The notes under the pieces are model-generated. The model ran no database searches. It had not been told where the DNA came from and saw only the letters and a list, made by a program, of their open reading frames with translations. From Deltaproteobacteria bacterium (GTDB lineage Bacteria > Myxococcota > JADLHZ01), in NCBI GenBank assembly GCA_020848545.1, contig JADLHZ010000034.1, positions 1 through 32,166 on the forward strand: 32,166 nt of DNA, read 5' to 3'. The translations under genes were made by a program, and so were the position numbers. Of the stretch, positions 5,797-31,885 are shown piece after piece. The first letter of the stretch is position 1, and each line of letters begins with the position of its first letter.

Positions 5797-5822
5797 GGGC
5801 GAGCGATCGGGGCGAGCGATCG
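5797..5822. repeat. 13-bp tandem repeat, two copies
   Basis: The unit GGGCGAGCGATCG occurs at 5797-5809 and 5810-5822, in the gap between the small lipoprotein and the PKD lipoprotein. It shares the CGATCG core and the 13-base period with the tandem repeat at the 3' end of the PKD gene, so the two may be related. Confidence 0.75.
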
Positions 5823-5934
5823 AAGAGGAATGTGGATCGACCGAGTAAATACTTGTCGCAATGGGTGCTGCCTCGCGGCGACGCAATGCGCGGATGACGA
5901 GCTGAACCGTCTGCAGGTTGAAAGGGGGACGACG

Positions 5935-8733
5935 ATGCGCAGCACATCAACCACGACCAGCGTGCTCGTCTTCCTCGCTGCCTGCTCCGCCTTCGACCCT
6001 CGCCTTCTACGCGATGACGGCGGCCCGGCGCCGATTGCCGAGGCGGGGAAAGACAGCACCGCTGTCGTCGGAACCATCGTGCAACTTCGCGCCGAAGGCG
6101 ACGGCGTGCCGCAGGTCGGCGCCACCTACGAGTGGGTGCTGCTCTCGCGACCGTTCCTCAGCTTCGCCGTGATCGCGAACCCGTTCAGCCATGAAGCGAC
6201 ACTGACCATCGACGCCGAAGGTCCGTTCGTCGTTGCGCTCAACGTCGACAACGGCCACGGCGAGCGTGCGATCGACGTCGTCATCATCGAAGGGACGAGC
6301 GACGTCGACGAACATCCGGGCCCGATCGACCGGCCACCTGTCGCCATCGTGGGCGACGATCGCGTGGTGGCGCCTGGAACCACCGTGATCCTCGACGGCT
6401 CGCGAAGCTACGATCCGGAGGGAAAGCCACTGGCCTATGGCTGGACGAGCATCTCCACACCCGGAGCGCCCGTCGTCCTCAGCCGTCCCTTCAGCGGGAC
6501 CACCACGTTCGTTGCCAATGAGCCTGGCGACTATGTATTCGCTTTGATCGTCAACGATCGCCTCGCCGACAGCCGCCCCGATTACATCGTCATCACGGCC
6601 AACGCTGCACCGACGCCGCGCCTATTCGCTCCGTCGCAAGTGGTCGTCGGCGACCTGGTGTCGCTCGACGCCGAGGCGAGCACCGATCTGGAGGCGGAAC
6701 CGCTGACGTACACGTGGCAGTTCGTGCAGAGACCGCCGTCGAGCACGTCGATTCTGATGAGCGGCGCCACGCCAGGCACAAAGGCGTTCCGGCCCGACAT
6801 CGCAGGAACCTACGGCGTTCAGCTCACAGTGAGCGACGGCGTCAACACGGTTGCACGCAGTACGTCAATCCTCGCGCGCTCGTACGGTGAGCTCAGGCCC
6901 ACCGCGAGCACGCCGAATACGATGATCGTGTTGCCTGCGAGCGTCGTGCAGCTCGACGCCAGCCACAGTACCAATCCGCTCGGCGGCAGTCTTACGTATG
7001 AGTGGACCCTGATGTCCGCGCCGGCGACCAGCGGGAATGCGGGTTGGTCGTCGACGGAAGAAAAACCGATCTACACCGCCGACGTCAGCGGGTACCATGT
7101 CGTGCAACTCGTCGTGCGAAACGCGCTGCTTCAGAGCTACCCCGTGACGACCACGATCCACGCGAACACGCCTCCGGTTGCTGTGGCCGGCCCGGATGCG
7201 ACTGTGATCGCAGGCACGAACGTTGCGCTGAACGGGAGCGCGAGCAGCGATGCTGACAACAACGTTCTCTTCTATTCCTGGAGCGTGCTGTCGTCGCCTG
7301 CCTCGAGCACTGCAGGAATCTCTTCAGCGACCAACGCAGCGGCAAGCTTCAAGCCCTATGCGGGCGGGACTTACGTGATCCAACTCAGAGTCAGTGACGT
7401 CGCGACGGCGACGCTGGACACTTTGACCCTCACGGTTCTCGTGCCACCGATCGCGCTGGCGGGTCCCGATCGCAGCGCAGCCATCGGGACACCGGTCGCA
7501 CTGGATGCCACGACCAGCACTGGCACTGCACCTCTCTCGTTTCAGTGGACGCTGTTGAGCGCGCCGCCCGGCAGCACAGCCACCGTGGTCGCTCCCGATC
7601 AGCCGATCACCAGCTTCACGCCCGATCTCATCGGGGTCTATCGCGTTCGGCTCGGCGTGACGGATCTCGTGAGCCTCACGAGCTTCGACGACGTCGAAGT
7701 GACCGTGGTTCCGGGCCTCGACCTCAACTGCACTTCTGACGCCATGCCGTCGTGGCCAACCATCGCATTCAGCCAGCGCGTCGCGTCGAATTTCGAACCG
7801 TTGTGCGACGGCTGGACACTCACTTTTGACAAGAACAGCAACAAGGTGCGGCTCGAAAACCTGCTCACCGGCGCGATCGGCATGACAGCGCAGTTGTCCG
7901 CTCGCGCGTCAGGCCTCGTGCTGGATCGACAAACGAACGCCGCCTACGCGAACCTCGCGCCTGCGACCTTCATCGAGAGAATCGATCTCAGCTCCGGCGC
8001 CGTCACGAGCCTTCCGTTGCAGAGGGAAGCCAGGGCGATGGCGACGGCCGAGAACGACAAGTTGGTCATCATCGAGCTCGCCGCGCCATCGACGTTCAAC
8101 TACCGCGTCACCGTCGTCGACGGGGCAACGGGTACCTCGCTGGCATCGACTCCAGCGATTGATTCGTCCATCTCGCGGCTCGCATACTCGAGCGTCAACG
8201 ACCAGGTGTTCGTCTCTTCGACCGGGAGCGTACGGCGTTTTGCGATGGATCCGAGCGTCGGAACGATCGCCGCGTCCCCCGAGCAAATGCTCTCAACGAG
8301 CAACGGCCCTGAGATCGCTCTTTCAGTAGACGGCACACGGATCGCGACGTCGGGTACTAGCACCGAGGACCGGAGCGCGAGCAACCTCGCGACCTTGTAT
8401 GGCGTGGTCAGCGGCACTCTTCCTGTGTACAGCCCGGACGGCACCTACTTGGCCATCGCAAGCACGAGCGGCGTGATACGCGTCTACTCGGTGGCAACTC
8501 ACGTCGAAGCCGTGTCGTACTCGTCGCTTTGCCCACCTGGTTCCTTCTTCACCTCGTTCTCGCGTATTCGCTTCTCCCGGGGCGGTCGCGCCATCGTGGC
8601 TGGGTATATCTGCGGCAGCAACGAGTTTCTGAAATGGATCTCCTTCGAGCCGGGAGTCAGGCACGGTGGCCCTGCGAGAAGCCCGATCGGGAAGCCCGAT
8701 CGGAGAGCCCGATCGAAGAGCCCGATCGAGTAG
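5935..8733 (+). CDS. PKD-repeat lipoprotein with beta-propeller-like C-terminus
   Basis: Start ATG 5935 was chosen because it follows AAAGGGG (5921-5927) at good spacing and gives a lipoprotein signal peptide (VLVFLAAC, lipidated Cys17). The in-frame extension back to 5830 has no signal. The 932-residue product has about six PKD/REJ-like beta-sandwich domains, beginning near residues 31, 134, 225, 320, 412 and 503. They show the typical PVAxxGxD...LDGSxSxDxxGxxLxYxW pattern. Residues about 600-905 look like a WD40/PD40-type propeller (LVLDRQTNAAYA, RIATSGTST, YSPDGTYLAIAS). It is probably exposed on the outer membrane; function unknown. The last 17 codons and the TAG stop lie in REP-like repeat DNA, giving a basic, low-complexity tail. 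Confidence 0.93.
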   Translation: MRSTSTTTSVLVFLAACSAFDPRLLRDDGGPAPIAEAGKDSTAVVGTIVQLRAEGDGVPQVGATYEWVLLSRPFLSFAVIANPFSHEATLTIDAEGPFVVALNVDNGHGERAIDVVIIEGTSDVDEHPGPIDRPPVAIVGDDRVVAPGTTVILDGSRSYDPEGKPLAYGWTSISTPGAPVVLSRPFSGTTTFVANEPGDYVFALIVNDRLADSRPDYIVITANAAPTPRLFAPSQVVVGDLVSLDAEASTDLEAEPLTYTWQFVQRPPSSTSILMSGATPGTKAFRPDIAGTYGVQLTVSDGVNTVARSTSILARSYGELRPTASTPNTMIVLPASVVQLDASHSTNPLGGSLTYEWTLMSAPATSGNAGWSSTEEKPIYTADVSGYHVVQLVVRNALLQSYPVTTTIHANTPPVAVAGPDATVIAGTNVALNGSASSDADNNVLFYSWSVLSSPASSTAGISSATNAAASFKPYAGGTYVIQLRVSDVATATLDTLTLTVLVPPIALAGPDRSAAIGTPVALDATTSTGTAPLSFQWTLLSAPPGSTATVVAPDQPITSFTPDLIGVYRVRLGVTDLVSLTSFDDVEVTVVPGLDLNCTSDAMPSWPTIAFSQRVASNFEPLCDGWTLTFDKNSNKVRLENLLTGAIGMTAQLSARASGLVLDRQTNAAYANLAPATFIERIDLSSGAVTSLPLQREARAMATAENDKLVIIELAAPSTFNYRVTVVDGATGTSLASTPAIDSSISRLAYSSVNDQVFVSSTGSVRRFAMDPSVGTIAASPEQMLSTSNGPEIALSVDGTRIATSGTSTEDRSASNLATLYGVVSGTLPVYSPDGTYLAIASTSGVIRVYSVATHVEAVSYSSLCPPGSFFTSFSRIRFSRGGRAIVAGYICGSNEFLKWISFEPGVRHGGPARSPIGKPDRRARSKSPIE
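8681..8732. repeat. 13-bp tandem repeat (four copies) inside the 3' end of the PKD lipoprotein gene
   Basis: GCCCGATCG recurs at 8681, 8694, 8707 and 8720, an exact 13-base period separated by purine-rich GRRA spacers. Because 13 is not a multiple of three, it is read as changing amino acids (SPIGKPDRRARSKSPIE). The last unit runs into the inverted REP-like copy at 8719-8745. Confidence 0.9.
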
Positions 8734-8745
8734 GAACTACGATCA
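8719..8745 (-). repeat. REP-like element, inverted copy
   Basis: This is a 27-base exact reverse complement of 8872-8898. It contains GTAG-GAA-CTAC, the local dyad of the element. The stop codon of the PKD lipoprotein (8731-8733) lies in it. Confidence 0.85.
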
Positions 8746-8782
8746 CGATCAAGGAAGAGACGATTCAGTCGCCGACGGATTC

Positions 8783-8821
8783 CTGATTCTGCTGATCGTA
8801 CTCTGCTTGATCGTACTCTGC
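8783..8821 (+). repeat. Truncated REP-like tandem units
   Basis: TGATCGTACTCTGC occurs at 8793-8806 and 8808-8821, preceded by a degenerate TGATTCTGC. These share the TGATCGTA head of the full-length copies but not the rest. Confidence 0.65.
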
Positions 8822-8849
8822 TGATCGTAGTTCCTCCTCGATCGGGCTT
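8822..8849 (+). repeat. REP-like element copy
   Basis: A 28-base unit opens with TGATCGTAGTTCCT and closes with CGATCGGGCTT. GATCG and CGATC form the lower stem of a hairpin. An extra CGATCGGGCTT follows at 8850-8860. Confidence 0.85.
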
Positions 8850-8871
8850 CGATCGGGCTTCCGGGCTTCCT

Positions 8872-8899
8872 TGATCGTAGTTCCTACTCGATCGGGCTT
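8872..8899 (+). repeat. REP-like element copy (most palindromic version)
   Basis: This is the same unit with CCTAC instead of CCTCC, which lets GATCGTAG pair with CTAC(TC)GATC around a TTC loop. That is an eight-pair stem with a two-base bulge, the bulged imperfect palindrome typical of REP elements. It pairs perfectly with 8719-8745. Confidence 0.87.
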
Positions 8900-8902
8900 T
8901 CC

Positions 8903-8930
8903 TGATCGTAGTTCCTCCTCGATCGGGCTT
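8903..8930 (+). repeat. REP-like element copy
   Basis: This copy is identical by eye to the one at 8822-8849. It is the copy nearest the 3' end of the RAYT gene. Confidence 0.87.
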
Positions 8931-8976
8931 CCGCGACAGTCGATGGTGGCTCAATTTGACAACAATTCGTTCGCGC

Positions 8977-9996
8977 TCAGGTCGTCGCGACCGCCATCAC
9001 GTGCGAGCGCCAAGTCACGGGGCGAAACGCGCGCAGCGGAAACTCCACCGTCAACTCGCCGGAGAGAAAGAGCCGAGAAGCGCGGCGAAAGGCGTGTTGA
9101 AACTGCCAGTAGCGGCGTACGAAATCTCGGGTGCCGGCAGCTCGCGCGTCTGCCCATGCGATCATCCGTCTGCGCCATTCGAACCATGGCGGCGGCGGCG
9201 ATTGTGTTCGATTCTCCCTACTCATTGCCATCACCCGCTCAGCGCCGACGACAGTGGCCCCGGTTTCGGCTCGACGTCGCGTCGCTTCGGCGGAGATCTC
9301 CTCCACGAGCTCGCGTACGAGCTTCCGCCTTTCAATTTCCTCAACGGCCGCCCAGGCCGGCAGCGGGGACAGGGCAATGACGTACGTCTCAAAGAAGTCG
9401 GCGCGGTCGACATGTGCAGGCTCTTGCTTGCGAGCCTCGAGCTGCAAAGCGCGCTTGTAGCGAGTGGCGTCGAGCCAGTCCCCTTTCATCTCGTCGCCAT
9501 CAACGAGCGCTCTGACGGATTGCACCCCGGGCCAATGCTCCGGCCTCTCGACGAGGTCCTCTTTGACGCCTTGGCTCAGGACGTATCTGAGCGCGTTCAC
9601 TTGGCTCTCAGGCGTGGGAAGCGCCGTCGCCACGAGCCCGCTCCACATTCCGCCGCGCCAATCGACGTCGGGCCGACCGCCCCACCGCCGAGAGATCTCG
9701 CGCTTGATGAAACCCATGAACGCGGGGAGCTCGTTGGCCGGCCCGGTCGCGATCGCATGGAGGTGATTCGACATGAAGACAATCGCGTGCAACGACACGG
9801 CCGGGTAGACGATCTGCGCGCGCCCGACCACGCCCGCGATCAGGTTGTTCAACTCCGCGCACGGAACGAGGAGAAAGCGACTTTGGAATGTCTTCGAGAT
9901 CAGGTGCATCGGCGTGCTCTCGTCGATGAAGCGCGCATGGTGACCACCTGCGAAGAGCTTGAGCTCGTCTTCTTCGGATACGCCAGCGTCATCCAT
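8977..9996 (-). CDS. REP-associated tyrosine transposase (RAYT), Y1/HUH superfamily
   Basis: The 339-residue product has an IS200-like Y1 transposase domain at about residues 28-150. It contains the PMHLISKTFQSRFLLVP segment, the HUH motif H78-L-H80 (MSNHLHAIA) that binds the metal, and ALRYVLSQGVKEDLVERPEHWPG. Tyr138 in that last segment is the likely nucleophile. RAYTs cut and rejoin single-stranded DNA at REP hairpins. The remaining ~180 residues are basic and helical and end in EWRRR...RRYWQFQHAFRRASRLFLSGEL, as in the myxobacterial branch of this family. REP-like copies lie on both sides (8719-8930 and 10067-10092), which fits a domesticated RAYT with its own repeats. The ATG at 9996 gives the expected short lead into the domain. 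It is apparently intact. Confidence 0.88.
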   Translation of the reverse strand: MDDAGVSEEDELKLFAGGHHARFIDESTPMHLISKTFQSRFLLVPCAELNNLIAGVVGRAQIVYPAVSLHAIVFMSNHLHAIATGPANELPAFMGFIKREISRRWGGRPDVDWRGGMWSGLVATALPTPESQVNALRYVLSQGVKEDLVERPEHWPGVQSVRALVDGDEMKGDWLDATRYKRALQLEARKQEPAHVDRADFFETYVIALSPLPAWAAVEEIERRKLVRELVEEISAEATRRRAETGATVVGAERVMAMSRENRTQSPPPPWFEWRRRMIAWADARAAGTRDFVRRYWQFQHAFRRASRLFLSGELTVEFPLRAFRPVTWRSHVMAVATT

Positions 9997-10047
9997 CCGC
10001 GATGTTTATCGGCGTGGAGGGTGTCACCGCGCTGTCGAAGGCGGCGC

Positions 10048-10064
10048 TGTCCGAAAATCGGACA
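10048..10064. promoter_or_regulatory. Palindromic operator (TGTCC-N7-GGACA), copy 1
   Basis: Arms TGTCCGA and TCGGACA are perfect inverted repeats around AAA. The centre is at 10056, 62 bases before the GTG start at 10118. The same dyad recurs at 17591-17611 and 23128-23150 at nearly the same distance from a start codon. Confidence 0.7.
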
Positions 10065-10066
10065 CA

Positions 10067-10092
10067 CGATCGTAGTTCCTCCTCGATCAGCT
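10067..10092 (+). repeat. REP-like element copy on the 5' side of the RAYT gene
   Basis: CGATCGTAGTTCCTCCTCGA followed by TCAGCT matches the left-hand copies with minor end changes. It lies between operator copy 1 and the -10 region of the 10118 gene. Confidence 0.8.
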
Positions 10093-29739: not shown

Positions 29740-31885
29740 AGAAGACTTCGCGACAAGCGCGCGGGCGATCCTGTGCTGGGCGCTCTTGCTGCTACCGTCG
29801 TGCTTCTTTTGGTCCGAGGCGCGGTCAACGACGACGATAGATCTGACGATCACGTTCGACACCAGCTTCGCGATCAACGGCGTAAGGGCGAGCGGTTCCA
29901 CGGCGGACCGAGCGCTCGGCCCAACCACGAGCCCAGATTCACCGGACGCTCCGCTTCAGTCGCCCTATCGTTTGGTCATCTTGCTGACCAGCGAAACGGC
30001 AAACGCGCTCAACGGCGCCGAGGTTGCCGTCCGCGTCGAAGGGCTCGCAAACAACAACGTCGTCGAGCTCGTGGGGAAAACAAGCGTTATCGTGCGAGAG
30101 GGCACCGTCACTACCGCCTCTGTGACCTTGGATGTGCCCCCGCTGCCGGTATGCGGCGACGGCGAGATCCTGGCCGGTGTCGAGGCCTGCGACGATGGCG
30201 GAGTGATCGGCGGCGACGGTTGCGGCGCGAACTGTGCTCTTGAGCCGGGCTTCGCATGTGAGGGCTTGCCCTCCACCTGCAGCTTCGTTTGCGGCAACGG
30301 GGTCGTGAACGAGAACGAAGGGTGTGACGACGGCGGCAATCAGAACGGCGACGGCTGTTCGGGAATTTGCTCGGTCGAGAGCGGCTACAAATGCATCGGC
30401 GAGCCGTCTTCATGCTTCCGCATCTGTGGAAACGGCCAAGTAGATTCCGGCGAGACCTGCGACGACGGCGGGGCATCCAGCCCAGGGTGCAGCGCGAGCT
30501 GTCAGACCGAAACGCTGTACGAATGCCCAACGCCCGGCATGCCGTGCCGGTTGATTTGTGGCAACGGCGCGCTCAACCCCGGTGAGACTTGCGACGACGG
30601 CGGCGCAGCGAGCCCCGGGTGCGACGCGAACTGTCAGACCGAAGCGCTATACGCATGCCTCACCCCCGGCGCGCCGTGCACACCGTTGTGCGGCAATGGA
30701 GCGCTCGACGGTACAGAGATCTGCGATCCAGGCGGAGGCGGAATATTCTCGCTCATTGGAGGCACAACGGCGCGGCACAACTGCTTGAGCGAAGGGCTGC
30801 TGCAAGGGGCCGGCAGCCAGGTGACTTGCTCGCCGTCCTGCACTCTGGTGACGACATCGTGCACTGGCGGCTCGATCGATAGCGCTGCGAAGATCGTCTC
30901 GGCGATCGCCGAGGCCTTCGATAACGTCAAGAACCCTGGCCACGACGTTATTTCCATTCGCCAATGCGCGAGCGGTTGCACAGTTGGTGGGGCGTATCAG
31001 CCATCGAGCGCCATCCTGATCAACGAACCAGGCACCGACGAAGGGATGACGCTGCGGCCGATGAGTGGCATCGTGCAATTTTCCGGGACCATGCTGGGCG
31101 GCACTGAAGTGCTGCAACTGCGGTCAGGGAAGAACAACCTCGCAGCTTTCGACTTTGTCGACGCGCCGTTGGCGATTTCATTCCACAGCGCAGACACGAC
31201 CGGCGCGAACACTGTGCTCGCTTGCAGCTTCGCGGCCTCGGCAGGGAGCGCGCAGTTCGTCGACGTCCAGAGCAAAGGCAACACGATCCTCGCCAATCGC
31301 TTCGACGCTGGGGGAACGAACACGTACGCGATTAACGTCGCCGCGGGTGCGGCGAACACGACGATCGTCGCCAATGTCATCTCCGGAAACTTCGACTTCG
31401 CGATTGACGTTGGCTTGACGAGCACCGGCACGACGATCCTCGATCACAATTCGCTGCGAATCGTTGGCGCTAGCAAGTACGGAATACACCTTAATACCGG
31501 CCAAGGGTTGTGCGCACGCAACAACGCTATCATTGGGGACGGCTCTTCCCGCGGCTATCAAATCGACTCCGCGCCGACGATCGCATGCGCGAACGGCCCG
31601 GCGACCGGCAACAACGGCGTCCTCAACGCCGGTTCCGAGTGTGCCGGCGCCGGTTGCGGGGCTTCGACCTGTCTAACCGGCTCACCCGGCCCGCTCTGTA
31701 GCATCATCGTCGGGTATCAAGCTTCCGGTCCTCCGACGCTCGACACGAATTTTTGCCCTGGGCCACCGTTGCGCAACGCCGGCGCGGATGCCGGCTACTT
31801 CATGGACCCAACGCCGGACATCGGTGCAAGGCAAAGCGGTCGCATCAACCTTTATGGGAGCAGCGTGCTCCTTGCCTGTCCCTAG
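29723..31885 (+). CDS. DUF4215 cysteine-rich and beta-helix surface lipoprotein following the second cassette
   Basis: ATG 29723 is embedded in the last codons of OMP-b (GGCTATGTCTTT). It yields a lipobox (CWALLLLPSC, lipidated Cys27). The 720-residue product has an N-terminal beta domain. Five DUF4215-type repeats follow (CGNGxxxxxExCDDGG...GCxxxCxxExxYxC) over residues about 143-340. The C-terminal part is an asparagine/threonine-rich parallel beta-helix-like region (NLAAFDFVDAPLAI; NTTIVANVISGNFDFAIDVG). Repeats three and four are very similar in DNA, a sign of recent tandem duplication. DUF4215 repeats are common on myxobacterial surface proteins. Same place in the cassette as 20153 but unrelated domains. 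Confidence 0.92.
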   Translation: MSFSSKEDFATSARAILCWALLLLPSCFFWSEARSTTTIDLTITFDTSFAINGVRASGSTADRALGPTTSPDSPDAPLQSPYRLVILLTSETANALNGAEVAVRVEGLANNNVVELVGKTSVIVREGTVTTASVTLDVPPLPVCGDGEILAGVEACDDGGVIGGDGCGANCALEPGFACEGLPSTCSFVCGNGVVNENEGCDDGGNQNGDGCSGICSVESGYKCIGEPSSCFRICGNGQVDSGETCDDGGASSPGCSASCQTETLYECPTPGMPCRLICGNGALNPGETCDDGGAASPGCDANCQTEALYACLTPGAPCTPLCGNGALDGTEICDPGGGGIFSLIGGTTARHNCLSEGLLQGAGSQVTCSPSCTLVTTSCTGGSIDSAAKIVSAIAEAFDNVKNPGHDVISIRQCASGCTVGGAYQPSSAILINEPGTDEGMTLRPMSGIVQFSGTMLGGTEVLQLRSGKNNLAAFDFVDAPLAISFHSADTTGANTVLACSFAASAGSAQFVDVQSKGNTILANRFDAGGTNTYAINVAAGAANTTIVANVISGNFDFAIDVGLTSTGTTILDHNSLRIVGASKYGIHLNTGQGLCARNNAIIGDGSSRGYQIDSAPTIACANGPATGNNGVLNAGSECAGAGCGASTCLTGSPGPLCSIIVGYQASGPPTLDTNFCPGPPLRNAGADAGYFMDPTPDIGARQSGRINLYGSSVLLACP

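Follow-up and report, generated by a model that had tools for sequence, protein, structure and literature searches.

What kind of mobile element lies in this stretch of a Myxococcota genome, and what produced the short repeats at its edges? The window, meaning the whole 32,166-nt stretch that was analysed, had been described in a preliminary way as holding a RAYT gene flanked by its own REP-like repeats. The anatomy is almost certainly that of a single-strand (HUH-Y1) element of the RAYT/TIRYT type, with the gene between inverted REP-like termini and a gene-less REP pair alongside. As a whole, the locus is best explained as such an element whose terminal arrays would have arisen from repeated abortive nick-extend-rejoin reactions of the transposase. 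We assign this reading, which rests on sequence, a probability of about 0.55. The features of the locus are listed in Table 1.

Table 1. Coordinates of the element and its repeats in the window
Feature	Position	Strand	Details
Sixth REP-like copy with short units	5797..5846	+	two GGGCGAGCGATCG units (5797, 5810); upstream of preceding gene
Stutter array outside far-end repeat	8678..8718	+	three short terminal units, AGCCCGATCG at 8680, 8693, 8706
Far-end REP-like repeat	8719..8747	+	inverted relative to the others
Spacer	8788..8822	none	GATCGTACTCTGCT twice (8794, 8809)
Array	8822..8932	-	three REP-like copies (cores 8823, 8873, 8904) and two truncated units
RAYT-like HUH/Y1 transposase gene	8977..9996	-	339 aa; SNHLH; catalytic Tyr138 in YVLSQGVKEDL; LVx5WPG
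REP-like terminal repeat	10068..10088	- (reads inward on minus strand)	upstream of transposase gene; without array

The transposase was correctly recognized as an intact HUH protein; it has a 339-aa frame, an SNHLH motif and Y138. It matches the NCBIfam profile REP_Tyr_transpos (NF047646) at E 1.5e-10 with 41.1 bits, below the curated cut-off of 80, and a Pfam search gave no match at E<=1. An AlphaFold2 model from 45 sequences (mean pLDDT 87.6) includes predicted C-terminal helices. Its best PDB match in Foldseek is 4er8 (E 7.7e-4, probability 1.00, TM 0.71 on the target), the E. coli RAYT bound to a REP hairpin, which ranks ahead of IS200 proteins. The HUH motif, a single catalytic tyrosine and, in the predicted structure, the Y1 fold are all present, as in class 2 RAYTs. 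SNHxH, Y138, G143, K145, LV and WPG are invariant in a 26-member alignment. Across 69 intact ORFs from protein-query searches, the tyrosine motif is Y-x-x-x-[QHN]-G in 66 and Y---NP in three. The part of the Y1 class table available to us assigns Y---NP to class 2 and Y----Q to class 3, and Y-x-x-x-Q-G was not found among the motifs in that part (PMC6006769). The window transposase, with YVLSQGVKEDL, lacks the Y---NP signature. It is single-copy in its genome, where the NF047646 profile matches 19 places; in a separate search, four places match Pfam Y1_Tnp at E<=1e-3.

Five REP-like copies surround the gene and a sixth lies at 5811-5846. The 21-nt core is found at 8823, 8873, 8904 and 10068 on the plus strand and at 8724 on the minus strand, and the perfect 27-nt inverted pair reported earlier (8719-8745 / 8872-8898) is exact in the sequence. 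The earlier account of full-length and partial copies around the gene stands for the five copies; much of what it took for partial copies is terminal array, and the copy at 5811-5846 was missed. Its bulged palindromic unit needs correction as well, single copies folding weakly: three of the seven strands tested gave z = -2.9, -2.5 and -2.3, and the others -1.05 to +0.24. An Rfam search of the window gave no match. The gene lies between inverted REPs (8719-8745 versus 10068-10088), as expected of class 2. On its downstream side is the gene-less REP pair, both ends of which have the tip (A)AGCCC. Three short terminal units lie on the far side of this pair and the array at 8822-8932, in which the outer boundary GGGCTT(CC) recurs, faces the gene. 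The strongest array of the window is part of the gene-less pair, not of a simple element end, and because it faces the gene it can be taken for an element end with less assurance.

The repeats also touch neighboring coding sequence. The array at 8680-8733 encodes the final codons and stop of ORF 5830-8733, the TAG itself coming from the far-end repeat at 8719-8747. The sixth copy and its two stutter units lie directly upstream of the preceding lipoprotein-like gene; as the called ATG at 5830 falls within that copy, the true start of the gene is probably further down. Elsewhere in the window, two tandem 132-bp copies (78%) at 30447-30706 are possibly repeated cysteine-rich coding units.

Genome-wide, the 21-nt core occurs at 10 sites with at most two mismatches, five of them in this locus, and the reversed-pattern control gave 0. 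A looser pattern, GATCNNNGTTCCTNNTCGATC, has 14 exact sites and 23 at up to two mismatches (control 0). With a sequence model trained on 16 genomic REP-like copies, 17 matches were obtained at E<=0.01 in 8 Mb, namely the training copies and one marginal match. The repeat family is not a product of chance, nor is the unit found only at this locus, the outcome that the preliminary description had named as its refutation: the 16 copies are spread over five contigs (six on the window contig C34, five on C12, two each on C145 and C111, one on C5). At 16 copies in 8 Mb, the unit falls short of an abundant REP family. The expectation of many intergenic copies served by one RAYT gene is not supported as worded, given 16 copies against 19 RAYT-profile matches, the window protein itself being single-copy. 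Nor is GTAG, earlier taken as the core of the unit, a general feature, since the copy alignment has it in 6 of the 16 copies and not at the hairpin foot. The GGGGWSAS motif is absent and the own-genome consensus centers around CGATCGANNAGGAACNNNGATC. Dispersed gene-less copies of the REPIN/BIME kind are present, with two inverted REP pairs at C12:80441-80656. At this second locus (C12:80441-82206) the two pairs follow each other in tandem, spaced about 40 nt apart and with arrays on both sides, and a fifth copy is 1.5 kb off.

Of 195 genomes of the phylum, 40 contain relatives of the transposase at E<=1e-10, frequently in many copies. A scan of named genomes yielded 142 relatives, of which 80 were kept; Myxococcota and Acidobacteriota (Thermoanaerobaculia) are prominent among the 80. 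On reading of the flanks, the inverted termini vary by lineage (GATCGACCAGGAAC, GATTAAGCAGGAA, GGTGTCAAAG, GGTGCC). Counts of the GGTGTCAAAGRAYTCGA core in four larger genomes range from 74 to 151 (0 to 7 for the reversed control); they greatly exceed those of the gene, as gene-less copies would predict. The repeats in these relatives are true element termini with stuttered terminal arrays. Some loci have individual histories. L084 and L085 have transposase genes that are 94% identical and ends that look unrelated, as if genes and termini were exchangeable. The upstream flank of L063 carries a REP-like stretch (AAGTGTTTGACACCTTCTC) twice within an apparent repeated coding domain. L112 and L113 represent a single insertion that two species inherited, with flanks about 76% identical and differing array units. 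Clean empty-site searches found no ortholog of a flank of L095 in its genus. For L098, each flank was found separately in a sister genome with no joined empty site, and this locus may be a rearrangement point too.

To quantify the arrays, we applied one statistic to all sets, by which a sequence is positive if 12-mers that recur at distances of 6-80 bp cover at least 18 bases of it. Among relatives across Myxococcota and Acidobacteriota, 43/70 upstream and 35/70 downstream flanks are positive, and 47/63 loci have an array on either side. Of random 400-bp windows drawn from these or from sister genomes, 46/980 were positive, as were 7/67 and 8/67 far flanks (Fisher enrichment: upstream p 5e-33, downstream p 8e-24). 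As single-contig genomes are among the positives, assembly error is unlikely. The 16/63 loci without an array count against our best explanation. An independent set of 49 further loci, from which 31 of 80 were left out as repeats of earlier ones, reproduced the upstream enrichment (16/47 versus 23/330 in controls, p 1.3e-6); its downstream arrays (7/46, p 0.075) were not significant, and its tyrosine motif is circular as the scan used that peptide. The first census left out eight distant loci (L044, L045, L047, L049, L059, L060, L076, L077), which by themselves have arrays in 3/8 on each side; L050 and L116 were dropped for lack of a match. NP-class RAYT loci of the phylum are array-positive in 9/22 upstream and 10/23 downstream flanks. 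A restriction of the arrays to the QG clade was considered and ruled out, given the positive NP-class loci and the positive L049, L076 and L077.

We parsed 82 arrays into copy segments, and their units have a common outer start and differing inner ends. Where an array has at least three jumps, the outer boundary is tighter in 31 cases, the inner in 7, and the two are equal in 1 (p 1.2e-4). The method is unbiased, since reversed strings give the opposite result (6 versus 31). The independent set alone gave 6 to 2 (p 0.29), and unoriented control arrays with at least two jumps lean 14 to 6, which is not significant (p 0.12). In many loci (e.g. L095, L098, L106) the inner ends cluster directly after a conserved GGTGTC or GGTGCC, often the loop position of a possible terminal hairpin. 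Read from the sequences, the termini across the family bear direct arrays of terminal fragments with a fixed terminus, a variable inner end and little homology.

These features bear on whether the transposase made the arrays at all. Slippage is the usual explanation for short tandem repeats near hairpins, and if the arrays came from ordinary slippage during replication, or from unequal exchange, at repeats prone to form hairpins, the transposase would be irrelevant once the element is in place. Such an origin would suit the similar arrays on gene-less REP pairs and the mutations that some units have in common with their neighbors, which resemble stepwise growth. It also suits the junctions, in so far as one-nucleotide homology is somewhat over-represented (53/126). 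The count drew on the 55 of 82 arrays that were clean enough, and the window array (L018) was left out because it faces the other way. However, homology of at least 3 nt is found in 10/126 junctions and most have none of that length, the mean being 0.98 nt versus 0.72 by chance. Plain slippage would moreover keep unit length and have no preferred end, whereas the units here differ in length, have one end in common and show a polarity that flips on reversal. We consider slippage unlikely, and place the making of the arrays by the enzyme at even odds.

Three comparisons identify the outer boundary of the arrays as the physical end of the element. L089 and L090, two copies that are 96% identical and occupy different loci in one genome, have the same tip sequence at both ends. 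The right tip is common to L214 and L228, one of which has it as an array and the other only once. At L098, the host homology seen in sister genomes ends at the array outer boundary. The alternative that array units contain host flank DNA was rejected on the same grounds, as the tags are common to recent copies at different loci and host homology stops. The outermost 5-13 nt differ between loci because tips diverge faster than the rest of the element, and the end tags are its own fast-diverging tip. Known TnpAREPs cut between C and T. Cleavage at such a site was examined for the outer boundary and discarded, as no dinucleotide is common there.

The same anatomy could result from serial insertion, in which the element repeatedly targets its own end and adds truncated single-strand end fragments. 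Every unit begins at the terminus, the inside cut often falls directly after GGTGTC or GGTGCC (assigned partly by eye), and in vitro TnpAREP can join the 5' end that it has cut to a 3'-OH of foreign origin, according to the accessible text of PMC8266576. This route would nevertheless require many independent insertions in constant orientation at the same base, and we judge it distinctly improbable.

In the abortive-copying reading that we prefer, a cut by the transposase at the terminus would link the 5' end of the element to the tyrosine and free a 3'-OH on the flank. A polymerase would extend the flank 3'-OH a short distance into the element. The new 3' end would then attack the tyrosine link, giving a tandem copy that runs from the terminus to the stopping point, and repeated rounds would build the array as a failed start of rolling-circle-like copying. 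According to the sections of PMC8266576 available to us, cleavage by TnpAREP yields a 5'-phosphotyrosine and a 3'-OH, and the 3'-OH made by HUH enzymes can prime replication or undergo strand transfer, both possible for REPs. In its specific form, that the arrays are fossils of aborted rolling-circle initiation in which a RAYT/TIRYT nick at the 5' terminus lets the flank 3'-OH prime synthesis inward, the proposal is tentative and the odds are somewhat against it.

There is no settled account of how RAYTs multiply REPs and REPINs; the same partial source (PMC8266576) allows for both primed replication and strand transfer. That arrays in dozens of loci are fixed at the outer end and variable at the inner one points to a particular reaction at a particular base. 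If the abortive-copying reading is true, every array is a record of transposition starts that failed and shows exactly where cleavage takes place. Arrays of broken-off element tips may be a fossil record of element copying. They map candidate cleavage sites without biochemistry, and their sequence signature lends itself to tests in culture. With the survey, the range of RAYT-like systems also comes to include a clade of Myxococcota and Acidobacteriota whose tyrosine motif is unlisted.

Among known systems, IS200/IS605 elements have a Y[IV]ENQ tyrosine motif in a protein of about 150 aa, and we know of no terminal arrays in them. The window protein has the HUH-Y1 core fold in common with IS608 and ISDra2, and many of the next-ranked Foldseek structures belong to this family, but it has 339 aa and YVLSQ. 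Known members are also without terminal inverted repeats in the text available from PMC2817692.

The RAYT/TnpAREP REPtrons (class 2, Quentin 2018; E. coli rayT) are closer. They likewise combine a HUH single-tyrosine transposase with its own inverted repeats on both sides and gene-less pairs elsewhere, and E. coli RAYT 4er8 is the best structural match to the modeled protein. These likenesses, with the REP_Tyr_transpos match (E 1.5e-10), sustain the RAYT/REP assignment of the preliminary description in outline. Its canonical form fits less well: the protein has Y-x-x-x-Q-G instead of Y---NP and a long C-terminal part (339 aa), the repeats are few and without the conserved GTAG/GTGG tetranucleotide at the hairpin foot, and terminal fragment arrays are present. 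REPs usually exceed 100 per genome, as far as the available part of PMC2817692 indicates, against 17 model matches in 8 Mb here; in four other genomes the core matches number 74-151.

REPIN clusters (Bertels and Rainey 2011, PMC3116915) resemble the arrays in their tandem reiteration, which includes flanking sequence, often beside RAYT genes. A canonical GTAG REPtron with ordinary REP/REPIN clusters as in Pseudomonas could draw on such clusters with tandemly reiterated flanking DNA, described in the accessible portions of PMC3116915 and PMC3733652. We regard it as very improbable, since GTAG is in 6/16 copies, Y---NP is absent, copies number 16 and no more, and array units are terminal fragments with one end fixed and one variable, not the whole REPINs repeated in those clusters. 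E. coli rayT, a thin comparison of one locus, has a short-range array score of 0 on both sides and shows a longer-period (about 110 bp) tandem alone. In a limited search of open-licence papers, as far as their available text goes, fixed-outer-end terminal fragment arrays were not found described.

A C-terminal HTH-like domain is a feature of the TIRYT/TIRtrons. As presented in the accessible text of Di Nocera 2013 (PMC3733652), these have a RAYT-like gene flanked by terminal inverted repeats that bear no relation to GTAG REPs, as in the window, and their repeats likewise occur as dimers and clusters. GGGGWSAS, found in many TIRs, is absent from the window element, and that text does not describe fixed-outer-end terminal arrays. 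Overall, the window element resembles these TIR-flanked TIRtrons more closely than a GTAG REPtron.
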